Of a stretch of DNA of 64,000 nucleotides, positions 33,681 through 39,387 are shown one piece after another (the first letter of the stretch is position 1; each line of letters starts with the position of its first letter). The DNA lies in contig NZ_JADGMI010000001.1 in the NCBI RefSeq assembly GCF_015234305.1, positions 868,001-932,000 of the forward strand, read 5' to 3'. A program made the translations under genes and the position numbers. The notes beneath the pieces are model-generated. The model saw only the letters and a program-made list of their open reading frames with translations. It ran no database searches and was not told the origin of the DNA. This stretch comes from Superficieibacter sp. 1612_C1. GTDB taxonomy: Bacteria > Pseudomonadota > Gammaproteobacteria > Enterobacterales > Enterobacteriaceae.

Positions 33681-34475
33681 ATGTTTTTAGTCGACTCACA
33701 CTGCCATCTTGATGGCCTTGATTATCAATCTCTGCATAAAGACGTCGATGACGTGCTGGCGAAAGCCGCCGCCCGCGATGTGAAATTCTGCCTTGCGGTC
33801 TCGACCACGCTGCCGGGCTATCGCGGTATGCGCAAGCTGGTGGGCGATCGCCCGAACGTGGTGTTCTCCTGCGGCGTTCACCCGCTTAATCAGGACGAGG
33901 CGTATGACGTTGAAGAACTGCGTGCGCTGGCGGCGGAAGAGGGCGTGGTGGCGATGGGGGAAACCGGCCTCGATTACTTTTACACCCCAGAAACCAAAGC
34001 GCAGCAGCAACGCTCTTTCCGCGATCACATCCGCATCGGGCGCGAGCTTAATAAGCCGGTTATTGTCCACACGCGCGATGCGCGAGCTGACACCCTGCAA
34101 ATCCTGAGTGAAGAAAAGGTGACGGAGTGCGGCGGGGTACTACACTGTTTTACGGAAGATCGCGAGACGGCAGGTAAGCTCCTGGATATGGGGTTCTATA
34201 TCTCGTTTTCCGGCATCGTGACCTTCCGCAACGCAGAGCAGCTGCGCGACGCCGCGCGCTACATTCCTGTCGATCGTCTGCTGGTGGAGACGGATTCGCC
34301 TTATCTGGCACCCGTTCCGCATCGGGGTAAAGAAAACCAGCCTGCCATGACGCGCGACGTGGCGGAATATATGGCCGTGCTGAAAGGGGTAACGCTTGAA
34401 CAACTGGCGCAGCAGACCACACAGAACTTCGCCAGCCTGTTTCACATCGATCCGCTTCGCCTTCAGTCAGTCTGA
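33681..34475 (+). CDS. ycfH: TatD-family metal-dependent hydrolase YcfH
   Basis: A 264-residue TatD-like TIM-barrel deoxyribonuclease/hydrolase. Metal ligands: HCHLD at residues 7-11, the glutamate in GETGLDYF, VHTRDA, LHCFT and TDSPYLAP. Substrate in vivo is unknown. It lies 10 bp after holB and is probably in the same operon. No strong terminator is visible before the ptsG leader. Confidence 0.96.
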   Translation: MFLVDSHCHLDGLDYQSLHKDVDDVLAKAAARDVKFCLAVSTTLPGYRGMRKLVGDRPNVVFSCGVHPLNQDEAYDVEELRALAAEEGVVAMGETGLDYFYTPETKAQQQRSFRDHIRIGRELNKPVIVHTRDARADTLQILSEEKVTECGGVLHCFTEDRETAGKLLDMGFYISFSGIVTFRNAEQLRDAARYIPVDRLLVETDSPYLAPVPHRGKENQPAMTRDVAEYMAVLKGVTLEQLAQQTTQNFASLFHIDPLRLQSV

Positions 34476-34651
34476 GCCACTAATTTTTTTAGTACTCGTA
34501 ATTAATGTCAGAAACGAGTAAAGTCCACCGCCTGAAAACAGGCGGTGAAGTTAATTTATAAGCTTCTTTGTTATCAAGATTGTAAATATATGCAAAGTTT
34601 CTAATCATTGATAGTGGAAACGTGATTGTCGTCAAACAAAGATCCTATGAA

Positions 34652-34673
34652 TTATTTTACTCTGTGTAATAAA
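34652..34673. promoter_or_regulatory. Mlc operator upstream of ptsG
   Basis: The AT-rich TTATTTTACTCTGTGTAATA region (starting at 34652) matches in sequence and relative place the Mlc repressor site of E. coli ptsG, about 100 bp before the ATG. Mlc is released when EIICB-Glc is dephosphorylated, so glucose induces its own transporter. Confidence 0.65.
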
Positions 34674-34743
34674 TAAAGGCCCTAAGAGGCCTGGTTAACG
34701 ATGAGGCTCTCCCCCCTCATCCAGGCGCGAAAGCGTAAAAAAA

Positions 34744-34763
34744 GCACAAATACTCAGGAGCAC
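34744..34763 (+). promoter_or_regulatory. SgrS target and ribosome-binding site of ptsG
   Basis: CACAAATACTCAGGAGCACT covers the ptsG Shine-Dalgarno sequence (AGGAG) and matches the E. coli ptsG region that base-pairs with SgrS sRNA during glucose-phosphate stress, apart from the CACAAAT in place of CACCCAT. The sgrS gene is not in this window. Confidence 0.75.
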
Positions 34764-34770
34764 TCCAATT

Positions 34771-36204
34771 ATGTTTAAGAATGCATTTGCTAACCTGCAA
34801 AAGGTCGGTAAATCGCTGATGCTGCCAGTCTCCGTACTGCCTATCGCAGGTATCCTGCTGGGCGTCGGGTCGGCAAACTTCAGCTGGCTGCCAGAAGTTG
34901 TTTCGCACGTTATGGCGGAAGCTGGCGGATCTGTTTTCGCTAATATGCCTCTGATCTTCGCCATCGGCGTTGCGCTGGGTTTCACCAATAATGACGGTGT
35001 TTCTGCCCTGGCTTCCGTTGTCGCTTATGGCATCATGGTTAAAACCATGGCTGTAGTTGCGCCGCTGGTGTTGCATTTACCCGCCGAAGAAATCGCGGCT
35101 AAACATCTGGCAGATACCGGCGTATTAGGCGGTATTATTGCGGGTGCGATTGCGGCATATATGTTCAACCGCTTCTACCGTATTAAGCTGCCTGAGTATC
35201 TGGGCTTCTTTGCCGGTAAACGTTTTGTGCCGATCATCTCTGGCCTGACGGCGATCTTTTTGGGTATCGTGCTCTCCTTCATTTGGCCACCTATCGGTAC
35301 GGCTATTCAGACCTTCTCGCAGTGGGCTGCTTACCAGAACCCGGTAGTCGCTTTCGGTATCTACGGCTTCATTGAGCGCTGCCTGGTGCCGTTTGGTCTG
35401 CACCATATCTGGAACGTTCCTTTCCAGATGCAGATTGGTGAATACACCAACGCGGCAGGTCAGGTGTTCCACGGCGATATCCCGCGCTACATGGCAGGTG
35501 ACCCGACGGCGGGCAAACTGTCCGGCGGCTTCCTGTTCAAAATGTACGGTCTGCCTGCTGCTGCCATTGCTATCTGGCACTCTGCGAAGCCGGAAAACCG
35601 CGCGAAAGTCGGCGGTATCATGATCTCCGCGGCGCTGACCTCGTTCCTGACCGGCATCACCGAACCGATTGAATTTTCGTTCATGTTCGTTGCGCCGATC
35701 CTGTATGTGATCCATGCGATTCTGGCCGGTCTGGCTTTCCCGATCTGTATCCTGCTGGGAATGCGTGACGGTACCTCGTTCTCACATGGTCTGATCGACT
35801 TTGTGGTTCTGTCTGGTAACAGCAGCAAACTGTGGCTGTTCCCGGTAATCGGTATCTGCTATGCGATCGTGTACTACACGGTTTTCCGCGTGCTGATCAA
35901 AGCGCTGAACCTGAAAACGCCGGGTCGTGAAGACACCAGTGAAGATGCCAAAGCGGGCGCGACCAGCGAAATGGCTCCGGCTCTGGTAGCGGCGTTTGGT
36001 GGTAAAGATAACATCACCAACCTTGATGCCTGTATCACCCGTCTGCGCGTAAGCGTGGCTGACGTGGCTAAAGTCGATCAGCCTGGCCTGAAACGTCTGG
36101 GAGCAGCAGGTGTGGTGGTGGCAGGCTCTGGCGTGCAGGCTATTTTCGGCACCAAGTCTGACAACCTGAAAACTGAGATGGACGAATATATCCGTCACAG
36201 CTAA
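34771..36204 (+). CDS. ptsG: Glucose-specific PTS enzyme IICB
   Basis: 477 residues, exactly the E. coli length. An N-terminal membrane EIIC domain of about 380 residues binds and moves glucose (includes [14 protein letters not shown]). A linker leads to the EIIB domain with the phosphorylated cysteine in [10 protein letters not shown] (Cys421 in E. coli). It is the main glucose transporter and the sensor for Mlc. The leader is long with Mlc and SgrS control. Confidence 0.98.
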
Positions 36205-36226
36205 GCAGTCAGTTGGGGAGATAAAA

Positions 36227-36250
36227 GGCAGCGGAAACGCTGCCTTTTTT
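36227..36250. terminator. Terminator after ptsG
   Basis: GGCAGCG-GAAA-CGCTGCC plus TTTTTT. An AAAA run precedes it, so it may also end the convergent gene at 36268-36696. Confidence 0.92.
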
Positions 36251-36267
36251 ACGTCAGGATCGGGAGG

Positions 36268-36696
36268 TTATTTACCTTCCTGCTCCAGATAATCCGTCAG
36301 GAAATGTTCGGCATTGCCTTCCTGTGATAGCGATTGACTATAAGCGACCCAGGTCGATGAAGATTCGCCAGGCAGGTAAAGCTCACCTGAGCCATCTTTT
36401 ACACGCAGCAGTTCCCACGATTTGCCATCAATTTCCGTTTTATAACTGGTTGCGCCGCCGCTCGCTGGCTCCACTTTGCAACGAATAATCTTCTTATCCA
36501 GCGCGTTATCAACATTCGCAATCTGTACTAACGACTCGTTAGCCTCTTTTGGTCCAATACGCAGCGTCCATACCTGAATGCCTTCCTGACCTTCATAGCC
36601 TTTGACGTATTTAGCAATTTCAGGACGGGAAGCGTCTGCGAAGGCCGATTGGATAATCATTAACGAGCCGAGGATGGCAATAATAAAGCGAAACAT
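36268..36696 (-). CDS. Uncharacterised small secreted (periplasmic) protein
   Basis: I do not recognise this gene, and E. coli K-12 has none between ptsG and fhuE. 142 residues from the ATG at 36696, preceded by AACAGGAGAAAAC. The first 20 residues form a Sec signal (MFRFIIAILGSLMIIQSAFA), with cleavage before DASRPE; there is no lipobox. The mature part of about 122 residues is acidic near the C-terminus, has a single cysteine (IIRCKVE), no further membrane segment, and no motif I can name. Codon use looks like its neighbours. It lies downstream of fhuE on the same strand but behind a probable fhuE terminator, so it is likely transcribed alone. Confidence 0.85.
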   Translation of the reverse strand: MFRFIIAILGSLMIIQSAFADASRPEIAKYVKGYEGQEGIQVWTLRIGPKEANESLVQIANVDNALDKKIIRCKVEPASGGATSYKTEIDGKSWELLRVKDGSGELYLPGESSSTWVAYSQSLSQEGNAEHFLTDYLEQEGK

Positions 36697-36806
36697 GTTT
36701 TCTCCTGTTGAAGTCGATCCCTGCACAAAGATGCGTCAGAGCAGGGAAGTATCCCCTGAAAATATAAACTGTAACAACATCAAAATTGGTGGGCAGTAAA
36801 GGCTTG

Positions 36807-36833
36807 AAAAGCAGGGAGCCGGGCGGCCCCCTG
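36807..36833 (-). terminator. Terminator after fhuE
   Basis: On the minus strand CAGGGGGCC-GCCC-GGCTCCCTG followed by CTTTTC: a 9-bp stem with one G-U pair, 14 bp beyond the fhuE stop. Confidence 0.75.
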
Positions 36834-36846
36834 TAGAAGATGACAA

Positions 36847-39042
36847 TCAGAAGCTGTAATTGGCAGTAATTGAGAAGTTACGCGGTTCGCCGTAAACGAT
36901 AGAGCCTTCGATATTAGTATCGTAAGTTTTATCAAGCAGGTTATTAACGTTACCCTGCACGGAGAAGTTTTTGGTGACCTGATAACGGGTAAACAGATCT
37001 ACCAGCGCGTAGCTGCCCTGTTCTGCACGGAAGGTACCGAATGGGGTCGCGGTATCGGTGTAAACGCGGTTCTGCCAGTTCACGCCGCCGCCAACGGTCA
37101 GTTCCGGTACAGCCGGTAGACGGTAGCTGGAGAACAGCTTCACGCTGGTGCGTGGCAGGTTAGGATTCACCGCGTTGCCTTCGCTGTCCTCAGCAACATA
37201 GCGCGTTGCACCAAAGGTCATCTGCCAGTTATCGGTTATCGCGCCGTTAATTTCAAATTCGACGCCTTTGCTTACCGTGCCGTCCACCGCTTTGTACGCG
37301 GTCTCATTGTTGCTGCCAGCGATAGGTGAGCCGGTAGACTGTGCGACGTTATCCTGTTCAATACGGAACACGGCCAGCGTGGTGGTCAGACGGCTGTCCA
37401 TCCAGTCTGATTTCAGGCCCACCTCGTAGTTATTACCCGTGATTGGCTCAAGGTATTTACCTGAACTGTCGCGGGAATTCTGCGGCTGGAAGATAGAGGT
37501 ATAGCTGGCATAGGCCGACCAGTTATCATCAATGTCGTAAACCAGTCCCGCATAAGGCGTGGTGTGGTTTTTCTCCATGCTGTAGGTCAGCGTATCGATC
37601 TGCCAGTTGGTATAGCGGGCACCGAGGATCAGGTGTAGCGGGTCGGCCAATGAAATGCGCGTCGCAGCATACAGCGATTTCATATGGGTGGTATCATCCT
37701 GCGCCAGAGACTGCTGTCCCCAGTTGGTTTCCGGGAAGTTGCCGTCGTAGTTATAGAAACTACCCAGCTCATCCGGGAACACGTTGGCCCAGGTGTTCAC
37801 GTAGCGGTTATTCTGCTTACTGTAGCTTCCGCCGATCATCAGGTTATGCTGACGGCCGAACAGATCGTAGCTGCCGTCGGTAAAGAGATCCACCGCGTCG
37901 ACTTTACGCTTGCCGCTGTTCCAGCCGGTGCCGCCGACATAATCATAGCCCGGACCATAGCTGCTGTAAGGGCCAACCAGCATTCCATCGGCTTTGTTGA
38001 CATACGCATCAACGTACATCGTTTTACTGTCGAACTTCACTTCGGAGTGGGTCGCGTTCAGTGTGGCTTGCCAGGTTTCGGCGAAACGCTGTTTAAGCGT
38101 CACAAAGACTTTATTAATTTCTTTATTATTGTAAGCCCAGTCCGGCGCGGTGCTGCGCGAGCGATCATAGTGATTAGTACTGCCGTCAGTATTCCAGCGC
38201 GGCAGACCGCCCCAGGTCGGGCTGTTGACATCTATGCTCTGGTATTCATAGCCTGCGGAAAGGGTGGTGAGATCACCCAGATCGGCATCGATAATGCCGG
38301 AGAAGAATTTTTTTTCATTGTTGTAGCGATCGAGCCAGGAGTCATTATTCTGATAACCCGCCACAATGCGACCACGCACTTTACCATTATCGGTCAGCGG
38401 GCTTTGTAAATCCGCGACGTAGCGCTGTTTGTTCCAGCTTCCGTACTCCGCAGAAACGTTGCCTTTAAATTCCTGACTGGTCGCATGCTTACGGATCATA
38501 TTGATGGAGGCGGAGGGATTCCCCGTTCCGGTCATCAACCCGTTCGCGCCGCGCACCACTTCCACTCGCTCGAACAGGGCGGTATCAGATAAGGCATCGC
38601 CCAGGTTCCAGCGGGACTCAAAATAGGTTGGAATGCCATCAACCATGTAGTTATCAATCTGGAAGCCACGCGAATAATAAAGACTGCGATCGGAGTCCGC
38701 CTGACTTTTACTGATGCCTGTGGTGTTGTCCATCACCTCCCCCAGGGATTGCAGTTGCTGATCTTCCATGCGCTGCTCGCTAATAATGCTCACCGACTGT
38801 GGAATATCACGCTGTACCAGCATCATTTTCGTGCCGGCGGTACTGGCTTTAACGCTGTAATCCTGCTCCTGCGTATCCGCTGCGGCCTGAGCGGCAGCAT
38901 CAACCACAATGGTATCTTCTTTTTTAGTATCAGCAGCGAAAACGGCGGAAGGCATCAGCGCAAAGGCGATGCAGGCGGCCAGACGAGTTGGGGTGGTGGC
39001 AGGCGTATGCTGGTCATCCCTGGTTGAATGAGTGAAAGACAT
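36847..39042 (-). CDS. fhuE: TonB-dependent ferric coprogen/rhodotorulate receptor FhuE
   Basis: A 731-residue outer-membrane siderophore receptor; E. coli FhuE has 729. Signal peptide to about residue 37 (PSAVFA), a TonB box near EDTIVVDA, the plug domain with RDIPQSVSIISEQRM and ALFERVEVVRGANGLM, then a 22-strand barrel ending in Phe (NYSF). It imports ferric coprogen, rhodotorulic acid and ferrioxamine B. I start at the ATG at 39042 with AAAGGG upstream; the upstream in-frame ATG at 39171 would put 43 extra residues before the signal peptide. Confidence 0.97.
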   Translation of the reverse strand: MSFTHSTRDDQHTPATTPTRLAACIAFALMPSAVFAADTKKEDTIVVDAAAQAAADTQEQDYSVKASTAGTKMMLVQRDIPQSVSIISEQRMEDQQLQSLGEVMDNTTGISKSQADSDRSLYYSRGFQIDNYMVDGIPTYFESRWNLGDALSDTALFERVEVVRGANGLMTGTGNPSASINMIRKHATSQEFKGNVSAEYGSWNKQRYVADLQSPLTDNGKVRGRIVAGYQNNDSWLDRYNNEKKFFSGIIDADLGDLTTLSAGYEYQSIDVNSPTWGGLPRWNTDGSTNHYDRSRSTAPDWAYNNKEINKVFVTLKQRFAETWQATLNATHSEVKFDSKTMYVDAYVNKADGMLVGPYSSYGPGYDYVGGTGWNSGKRKVDAVDLFTDGSYDLFGRQHNLMIGGSYSKQNNRYVNTWANVFPDELGSFYNYDGNFPETNWGQQSLAQDDTTHMKSLYAATRISLADPLHLILGARYTNWQIDTLTYSMEKNHTTPYAGLVYDIDDNWSAYASYTSIFQPQNSRDSSGKYLEPITGNNYEVGLKSDWMDSRLTTTLAVFRIEQDNVAQSTGSPIAGSNNETAYKAVDGTVSKGVEFEINGAITDNWQMTFGATRYVAEDSEGNAVNPNLPRTSVKLFSSYRLPAVPELTVGGGVNWQNRVYTDTATPFGTFRAEQGSYALVDLFTRYQVTKNFSVQGNVNNLLDKTYDTNIEGSIVYGEPRNFSITANYSF

Positions 39043-39142
39043 GTTGAACCCTTTGTTATGTTTACTATTTGCCTCAAACCGATGCGGTGCCGGTAGTAAG
39101 TGCAAGGTAATAATTCTGATTTGCATTCGCGCATGTAAATGC

Positions 39143-39163
39143 AAATGCGAAATATACGCATTT
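39143..39163. promoter_or_regulatory. Perfect 21-bp inverted repeat upstream of fhuE, possible operator
   Basis: AAATGCG-AAATATA-CGCATTT lies about 100 bp upstream of the fhuE start. The fhuE gene is Fur-repressed in E. coli, but this repeat is not a good Fur box. The remaining 345-bp fhuE-hinT gap carries both divergent promoters and no gene. Confidence 0.4.
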
Positions 39164-39387
39164 ATGCTCATGCTGTAAACAGATGTTACACCGCTTTCCA
39201 GAACGTTGTTTTGATCGCGCGGACCGCGTTTCGGCAGGATTTCTGCTTAAACCAGCAGCGCCTGAGCGAGAAGGGGAAAGAAAACGTCGGATAAAGTTGA
39301 AAGAGCGGGAGTAAGTCGCTCATACTCTTATGGATGTTGTATTCTGTATGTCAGGTTTGCGCACTCATAATGAATTAAGGAAATGTC

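Follow-up and report, generated by a model that had tools for sequence, protein, structure and literature searches.

The window, a stretch of 64,000 nucleotides from Superficieibacter sp. 1612_C1, carries on its minus strand a gene for a protein of 142 amino acids (aa) that lies between ptsG and fhuE (Table 1). The gene is convergent with ptsG; fhuE lies upstream on the same strand, and the start of the 142-aa gene is 150 bp behind it. The reading frame translates into 142 residues plus a stop and is entered through CAGGAGAAAAC-ATG, in which the CAGGAG before the ATG is kept in all four Superficieibacter congeners. By eye, residues 1-20 end in AFA and resemble a Sec signal, leaving 122 mature residues. 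On this reading the protein is probably exported.

Table 1. Positions in the window of the 142-aa gene, its parts and the features that flank it.
Feature	Position	Strand	Basis
ptsG	34771-36204	+	
Bidirectional terminator common to ptsG and the 142-aa gene	36223-36248	both	hairpin folding
CDS of the 142-aa secreted protein, stop included	36268-36696	-	translation, homologs, dN/dS
122-residue mature domain with eight predicted strands, then two helices at the C-terminus	36271-36636	-	AlphaFold2 model, repeated with a Pseudomonas sequence
Strand 4-5 loop with the start of strand 5, residues 78-85, ASGGATSY	36442-36465	-	model strand limits, column counts
Sec-type signal peptide, residues 1-20, MFRFIIAILGSLMIIQSAFA	36637-36696	-	sequence reading; modelled without structure and at low confidence
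Shine-Dalgarno AGGAG, 5 nt before the ATG	36702-36706	-	sequence; CAGGAG kept in four congeners
Upstream block CCCACCAATTTTGATGTTGTT, promoter or operator candidate	36773-36793	-	four-congener comparison
Possible terminator behind fhuE, a hairpin whose T run is short	36812-36833	-	hairpin folding
fhuE	36847-39171	-	

All four Superficieibacter genomes examined have the gene, the other three at 87-96% identity, and the closest named homolog is that of Superficieibacter electus BP-1 (91% identity). Among the four congeners, pairwise dN/dS is 0.028-0.058 for the full gene and 0.020-0.056 for the mature part, estimates that are rough because several dS values exceed 1 and are saturated. Such low ratios indicate strong purifying selection on the protein. 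Together with the reading frame, the ribosome site and the Sec-like signal, they confirm that the gene for an exported protein read here by the initial annotation is real and that it is under purifying selection in related genomes.

As far as the terminators show, the gene is also its own expression unit, as had been proposed. The hairpin on the ptsG side folds at -18.4 and -17.4 kcal/mol in the two directions, and none of 200 shuffles is as good on either strand. The hairpin on the fhuE side is weaker (-18.1 kcal/mol, with 4 of 200 shuffles as good), and its tail is only TTTT. A simple terminator scan listed neither flanking hairpin; its sole site falls within the 142-aa gene. The block CCCACCAATTTTGATGTTGTT upstream is mostly kept in the four congeners while the sequence on either side of it diverges, and it is a candidate promoter or operator, in which we recognised no clean sigma-70 promoter. 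Rfam gave no match at gathering thresholds over 34400-37400.

The earlier remark that this spot is empty in E. coli K-12 proved correct. The ptsG-fhuE gap measures 642 bp in the window versus 59 bp in both K-12 and E. coli ATCC 8739, neither of which has an annotated gene there, and window positions 36100-36900 find no place at 80% coverage in any of 5426 complete E. coli genomes. GC3 is 0.47 in the 142-aa gene versus 0.62 in ptsG and in fhuE, and because it lies below that of both neighbors it suggests that the gene arrived later than they did. Separately, the fhuE protein is just 70-72% identical to those of three congeners, whereas the adjoining ptsG reaches 97-99%; the receptor may have been exchanged.

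The initial annotation also suggested that the protein is lineage-specific, which holds for its position but not for the protein itself. Among 88 neighborhood loci, ptsG and fhuE are both close to the family gene in five, all of them from Superficieibacter. Homologs, in contrast, place the family across Enterobacterales, Pseudomonas and Lysobacteraceae. In a family-level genome sample, matches come from 28 of 392 genomes and 14 of 154 genera, counts that include the four congeners; in a phylum sample, an alignment-based search that scored at most ten first-look candidates per genome found 8 of 398 genomes and 4 of 213 genera, all of the same class. A scan of genome contigs returned 68 named loci, 50 of them from Pseudomonas and the rest from Superficieibacter, Atlantibacter, Pseudocitrobacter, Pectobacterium, Lonsdalea, Proteus, Mixta, Kosakonia, Stenotrophomonas and one E. 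coli-labelled contig. That scan used one short peptide pattern, and the missing Citrobacter, Salmonella, Klebsiella and Enterobacter rows prove little. One congener (G003) has an additional copy, which shares 57% identity with the window protein and lies between ubiF and asnB, the same site as that of the Pseudocitrobacter and E. coli copies.

We aligned the window protein with 51 of the 68 scan loci, which gave ten invariant columns in 52 rows; another alignment holds 46 of the 68. A family-level alignment joins the window protein with 25 of 30 listed rows. The five left out are L001, whose protein is the same as that of the window, L012, and three that are broken or partial (L007, L029 and L030). 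A stop or frame break interrupts these last relatives (L007 in G029, L029/L030 in G130). In another relative (L006, the G007 copy), a long low-complexity stretch rich in Ala and Pro precedes the domain. A distant Pseudomonas group (L126, L129 and L179:6618-7613), 264 aa long in two members, has the domain as its N-terminal half; its C-terminal half contains Cys, and Pfam had no match for the two members scanned.

In a tree of 61 rows, several inner forks of which are weak, the Proteus rows are nested in a supported clade of mostly Pseudomonas sequences, and Lonsdalea falls among Pseudomonas. These placements argue for transfer of the family between lineages. Carriage on mobile DNA was considered and rejected: no phage record matches the family, and only three plasmid records do, two of which are E. 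coli-labelled but chromosomal in type (in one, chromosomal genes surround the copy; the other is 4.9 Mb long). The third is a 509-kb Xanthomonas plasmid.

The E. coli member, hypothetical protein WP_000943484.1, is a direct homolog of the window protein and belongs to the same family, but its gene has a different position, between a tRNA cluster and asnB. A supported branch of the tree joins it with the Pseudocitrobacter copies. Annotation gives it as intact in three of the strains looked at, one of them ST131, and as frameshifted in two more. At a query coverage of at least 80%, the C16EC0292 copy is found in 972 of 5426 E. coli genomes and the ST131 gene in 968, the latter a mixture of intact and frameshifted copies. 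With the ST131 gene as query, another 4384 genomes have a partial match only, bringing those with any match to 5352. Partial records made up 32 of 40 sampled down the E. coli ranking, and all 32 share the same query start position, which fits a single old deletion. Most E. coli, K-12 among them, have thus apparently lost the family member through one such event. In K-12, about 430 bp are missing and the last part of the gene remains between metT and asnB (NC_000913.3 697133-697513; L172). In the literature searched, we found no mention of three accessions of the E. coli member and recognised no paper that describes the family.

The initial annotation could assign no family, and our profile searches bear this out: no family model matched the window protein. 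Foldseek found no match in the PDB at E <= 0.001. Specifically, the protein has no match in Pfam (E <= 10), NCBIfam, PHROGs or PADLOC, and two further members have none in NCBIfam. When 26 members were compared with Pfam at E <= 1, only scattered weak matches to 11 families resulted, each from one or two members (best E 0.0055), with no consistent family and no MliC among them. Ecotin (PF03974), suspected by eye, was discarded, as Pfam gave no match at E <= 10 and no ecotin was found in the genome. A search of the PDB by sequence returned chance-level rows only.

Prediction with AlphaFold2 gave a model of the window protein with a mean pLDDT of 87 and block means of 92-96 over residues 31-140. 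It contains eight strands followed by two C-terminal helices, and a second, likewise confident model, built from a Pseudomonas lurida member, shows the same elements; the fold is most likely a small barrel of eight strands. The best Foldseek rows of the first model in the PDB are factor H binding protein barrels, and the second model has no match at E <= 0.001 in a viral structure library. Realigning the Foldseek candidates places structures of the MliC/PliC type first for both models. For the first, these are 4mir (Z 8.8, rmsd 2.1 over 80 residues), 4mis (8.6), 3f6z (8.2) and 3oe3 (8.1), with Brucella PhiA (7dpy, Z 7.7) as the fifth of the MliC/PliC/PhiA rows and the next row at 7.0. For the second, they are 4mis (8.4), 4mir (8.3), 3oe3 (7.7) and 3f6z (7.6), directly followed by a putative beta-lactamase domain (5hal, 7.5). 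An important caveat is that best Z scores of 7 to 8 are common according to the tool's note, so this top rank is a lead, short of proof.

Comparison with MliC/PliC (PF09864, COG3895) gives both likenesses and differences. MliC/PliC proteins form an eight-stranded antiparallel barrel. The window protein is likewise small and probably exported, it has eight predicted strands, and MliC/PliC structures rank first when its two family models are realigned, though other barrels follow within about 1-2 Z. MliC/PliC proteins are defined, in passages of PMC5507604 and PMC2267010, by a disulfide between strands 1 and 8 and by two motifs. In strand order, the loop at residues 78-85 corresponds to the one that MliC/PliC insert into lysozyme (motif definition in a passage of PMC5507604), and the Tyr at the start of strand 5, Tyr85 here (51 of 52 aligned sequences), is common to both families. 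ASGGATSY bears no more than a likeness to the motif SxSGAxY: Ser stands at position 79 in 23 of 52 rows and Gly at position 80 in 3 of 52, so the motif is not kept across the family and the likeness is confined to the window branch. The second motif, YxxxTKG on strand 6, is absent; the window protein has KSWELLRVKDG, and in the family column 94 is F, Y or W and column 100 mostly Q or R. SGELY, tried as an MliC motif, was rejected, as it sits between strands 6 and 7 by strand order and its Ser occurs in 6 of 52 rows. No aligned row among the 52 has a Cys pair for the strand 1-8 disulfide: 42 lack Cys throughout the mature part, and in the remainder it occurs only at 73, at 43 plus 73, or at 102 plus 103. 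The mature window protein has a single Cys, C73, on strand 4.

Unlike MliC/PliC, the window protein also has extra C-terminal helices and no match to PF09864. We compared the family by hhalign with a profile of 36 MliC sequences, from 40 loci (L131-L170) without L160, L165, L169 and L170 and with frames trimmed around the match. The score of 16.3 (probability 1.8%) is not significant, as 4 of 150 column shuffles score as high and the reversed comparison gives 14.4, although the local alignment does pair the family loop with the MliC loop. Because the disulfide is missing, the motifs are not kept and the profile comparison is non-significant, we do not file the window protein as a member of MliC/PliC. 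A canonical MliC is already encoded elsewhere in the same genome.

Three other proteins provide useful comparisons. Neisseria ACP is a lysozyme inhibitor with an MliC-like barrel that lacks the MliC motifs and has a longer loop 4 (passages of PMC5507604). It aligns with the two family models at Z 6.4 and 6.3, but it keeps the strand 1-8 disulfide, at which the window family has no Cys pair, and it has no significant match by sequence (the 5my7 row has E 0.91, mostly across the signal-peptide part). PhiA aligns at Z 7.7 and 7.4 and appears by fold only, being missing among the PDB sequence rows. The IltA/LiiA inhibitor system of Pseudomonas aeruginosa is an example of restraint on a lytic transglycosylase by a periplasmic protein (passages of PMC10746161); IltA is an alpha-helical Sel1-repeat protein of unrelated fold, and the parallel is one of analogy only.

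Our preferred reading, to which we give roughly one chance in three, is that the protein is a periplasmic inhibitor or sensor of a peptidoglycan glycosidase that works like MliC/PliC without being a member. It would be a soluble periplasmic protein of an unnamed gammaproteobacterial family, passed between lineages and retained by purifying selection. Like MliC/PliC, PliG and ACP, it would bind an enzyme that cuts the glycan strands of peptidoglycan, and binding would block that enzyme or report on it. The enzyme may be a lysozyme from a host or predator, a muramidase injected by a rival or a lytic transglycosylase of the cell itself. The strand 4-5 loop, together with conserved residues near Tyr85 and in the Gly104-Pro109 stretch, supplies the first candidates for a binding site. 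We infer the glycosidase binding, its site and its target alike.

In favor of this reading, MliC/PliC ranks first for two predicted models that were built from different sequences, and the loop ASGGATSY of the window protein resembles SxSGAxY. Patchy presence, apparent transfer and the deletion and frameshifts in E. coli would fit an accessory protection factor. The family may work like MliC/PliC without their motifs, for which ACP would be the precedent (passages of PMC5507604), and IltA is a case of restraint on a cell's own lytic transglycosylase (PMC10746161). Against it stand the non-significant Foldseek and profile results, the near tie of 5hal (Z 7.5) and a phenolic acid decarboxylase (Z 7.3) with MliC in the second model, the absent disulfide and motifs, the presence of the genome's own MliC and the fact that no gene for a peptidoglycan-cutting target was recognised beside the family gene.

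The neighborhoods in Pseudomonas bear both on this reading and on its main rival. Among 50 Pseudomonas loci, tblastn detects a divergent AraC-type regulator in 40, a 223-aa membrane protein in 40, an M48 metalloprotease in 30 and a DUF1176 gene in 16, although some of the loci stop less than 8 kb away on one side. These counts were made by tblastn because crude longest-ORF calling misread frames in GC-rich loci. One such module (L080:6866-11622) has Pfam matches to HTH_18 and Peptidase_M48. This company of metalloprotease and membrane protein is of envelope type and favors the inhibitor reading. In its fullest form, that reading describes a horizontally moving inhibitor family with an MliC/PliC-type barrel and a loop and C-terminal helices of its own, placed in an AraC-controlled M48 operon in Pseudomonas, present, intact or frameshifted, in 968 of 5426 complete E. 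coli genomes and lost from most E. coli, K-12 among them, by what seems a single old deletion; for so much at once, we consider the chances slimmer than for the inhibitor reading as such.

The same neighborhoods could mean instead that the protein is a chaperone, adaptor or substrate partner of the envelope M48 metalloprotease under the AraC-type regulator, the Pseudomonas module being ancestral and the enteric copies solitary derivatives. We think this unlikely, and less probable than either form of the inhibitor reading. The frequency of regulator, membrane protein and protease in Pseudomonas speaks for it, but the module is found in none of the 18 non-Pseudomonas loci of the scan, save for an M48 match of 31% in Stenotrophomonas, and the solitary Superficieibacter copies still have dN/dS values under 0.06.

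Outside Pseudomonas, the neighbors are unrelated from lineage to lineage. Pectobacterium has a GGDEF protein and a solute-binding protein there, Lonsdalea has UmuC/UmuD-like genes, Proteus has genes for nucleoside uptake, Mixta has a chemotaxis receptor and Kosakonia has a two-component system. The Xanthomonas plasmid copy adjoins a sigma factor, FecR and TonB-receptor set. A link to TonB receptors, as fhuE here and the Xanthomonas set might imply, was dropped because, of 88 loci, only five from Superficieibacter and four from Pseudomonas have fhuE-like genes, the latter at 28-35% identity. The connection to stress, iron or sugar phosphate that had been guessed from position is likewise unsupported, because the neighbors vary and fhuE is no conserved partner.

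A different possibility raised by the fold is a barrel of the calycin or avidin-like kind that carries a small ligand (a lipid, metabolite or metal) in the periplasm, which we regard as less likely again. The best Foldseek rows are other barrels, and in the realignments the places after MliC go to avidins, fatty acid binding proteins, phenolic acid decarboxylases and a lipocalin (4inn). These mostly have a lower Z and a larger rmsd than MliC/PliC, though one phenolic acid decarboxylase (Z 7.3) comes within 1.1 Z for the second model.

Improbable in our view is an orphan immunity protein, kept without the toxin that it counters, which would be a cell-wall hydrolase injected or delivered by contact. 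The patchy distribution, the apparent transfer between genera, the likely export and the solitary housekeeping surroundings in enterics all speak for it, as do the tandem copies in G744. Tsi3 acts as an immunity protein and would serve as the precedent. It is named as a PliG-type protein in a passage of PMC5507604. We recognised no effector or secretion gene beside any of the loci looked at, which are some of all loci, and the conserved regulatory neighborhood in Pseudomonas is atypical for such a gene. In the G744 locus (L178:6803-7604), the two family copies of one genome are tandem and divergent, with a gene for an AraC-type regulator nearby. An unrelated envelope role, such as stress-induced quality control of the outer membrane, is just as improbable, even though a tested function was found for no relative and several Enterobacterales copies adjoin unrelated genes.

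Taken together, these observations describe a real and uncharacterised family that is wider than the initial annotation supposed. It comprises a conserved, probably exported protein with no family model in the libraries searched; many Pseudomonas species have it, as do nearly one-fifth of complete E. coli genomes, in intact or frameshifted form. K-12 keeps only a scar of the gene, so studies of that reference strain in the laboratory could not have brought the family member to light. If the protein is an inhibitor of lysozyme or of a lytic transglycosylase, it would add to the known inhibitors a branch that, like ACP, does without their motifs, and the M48 protease operon of Pseudomonas would gain a testable function. 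If it is not, the family would still deserve an entry of its own.
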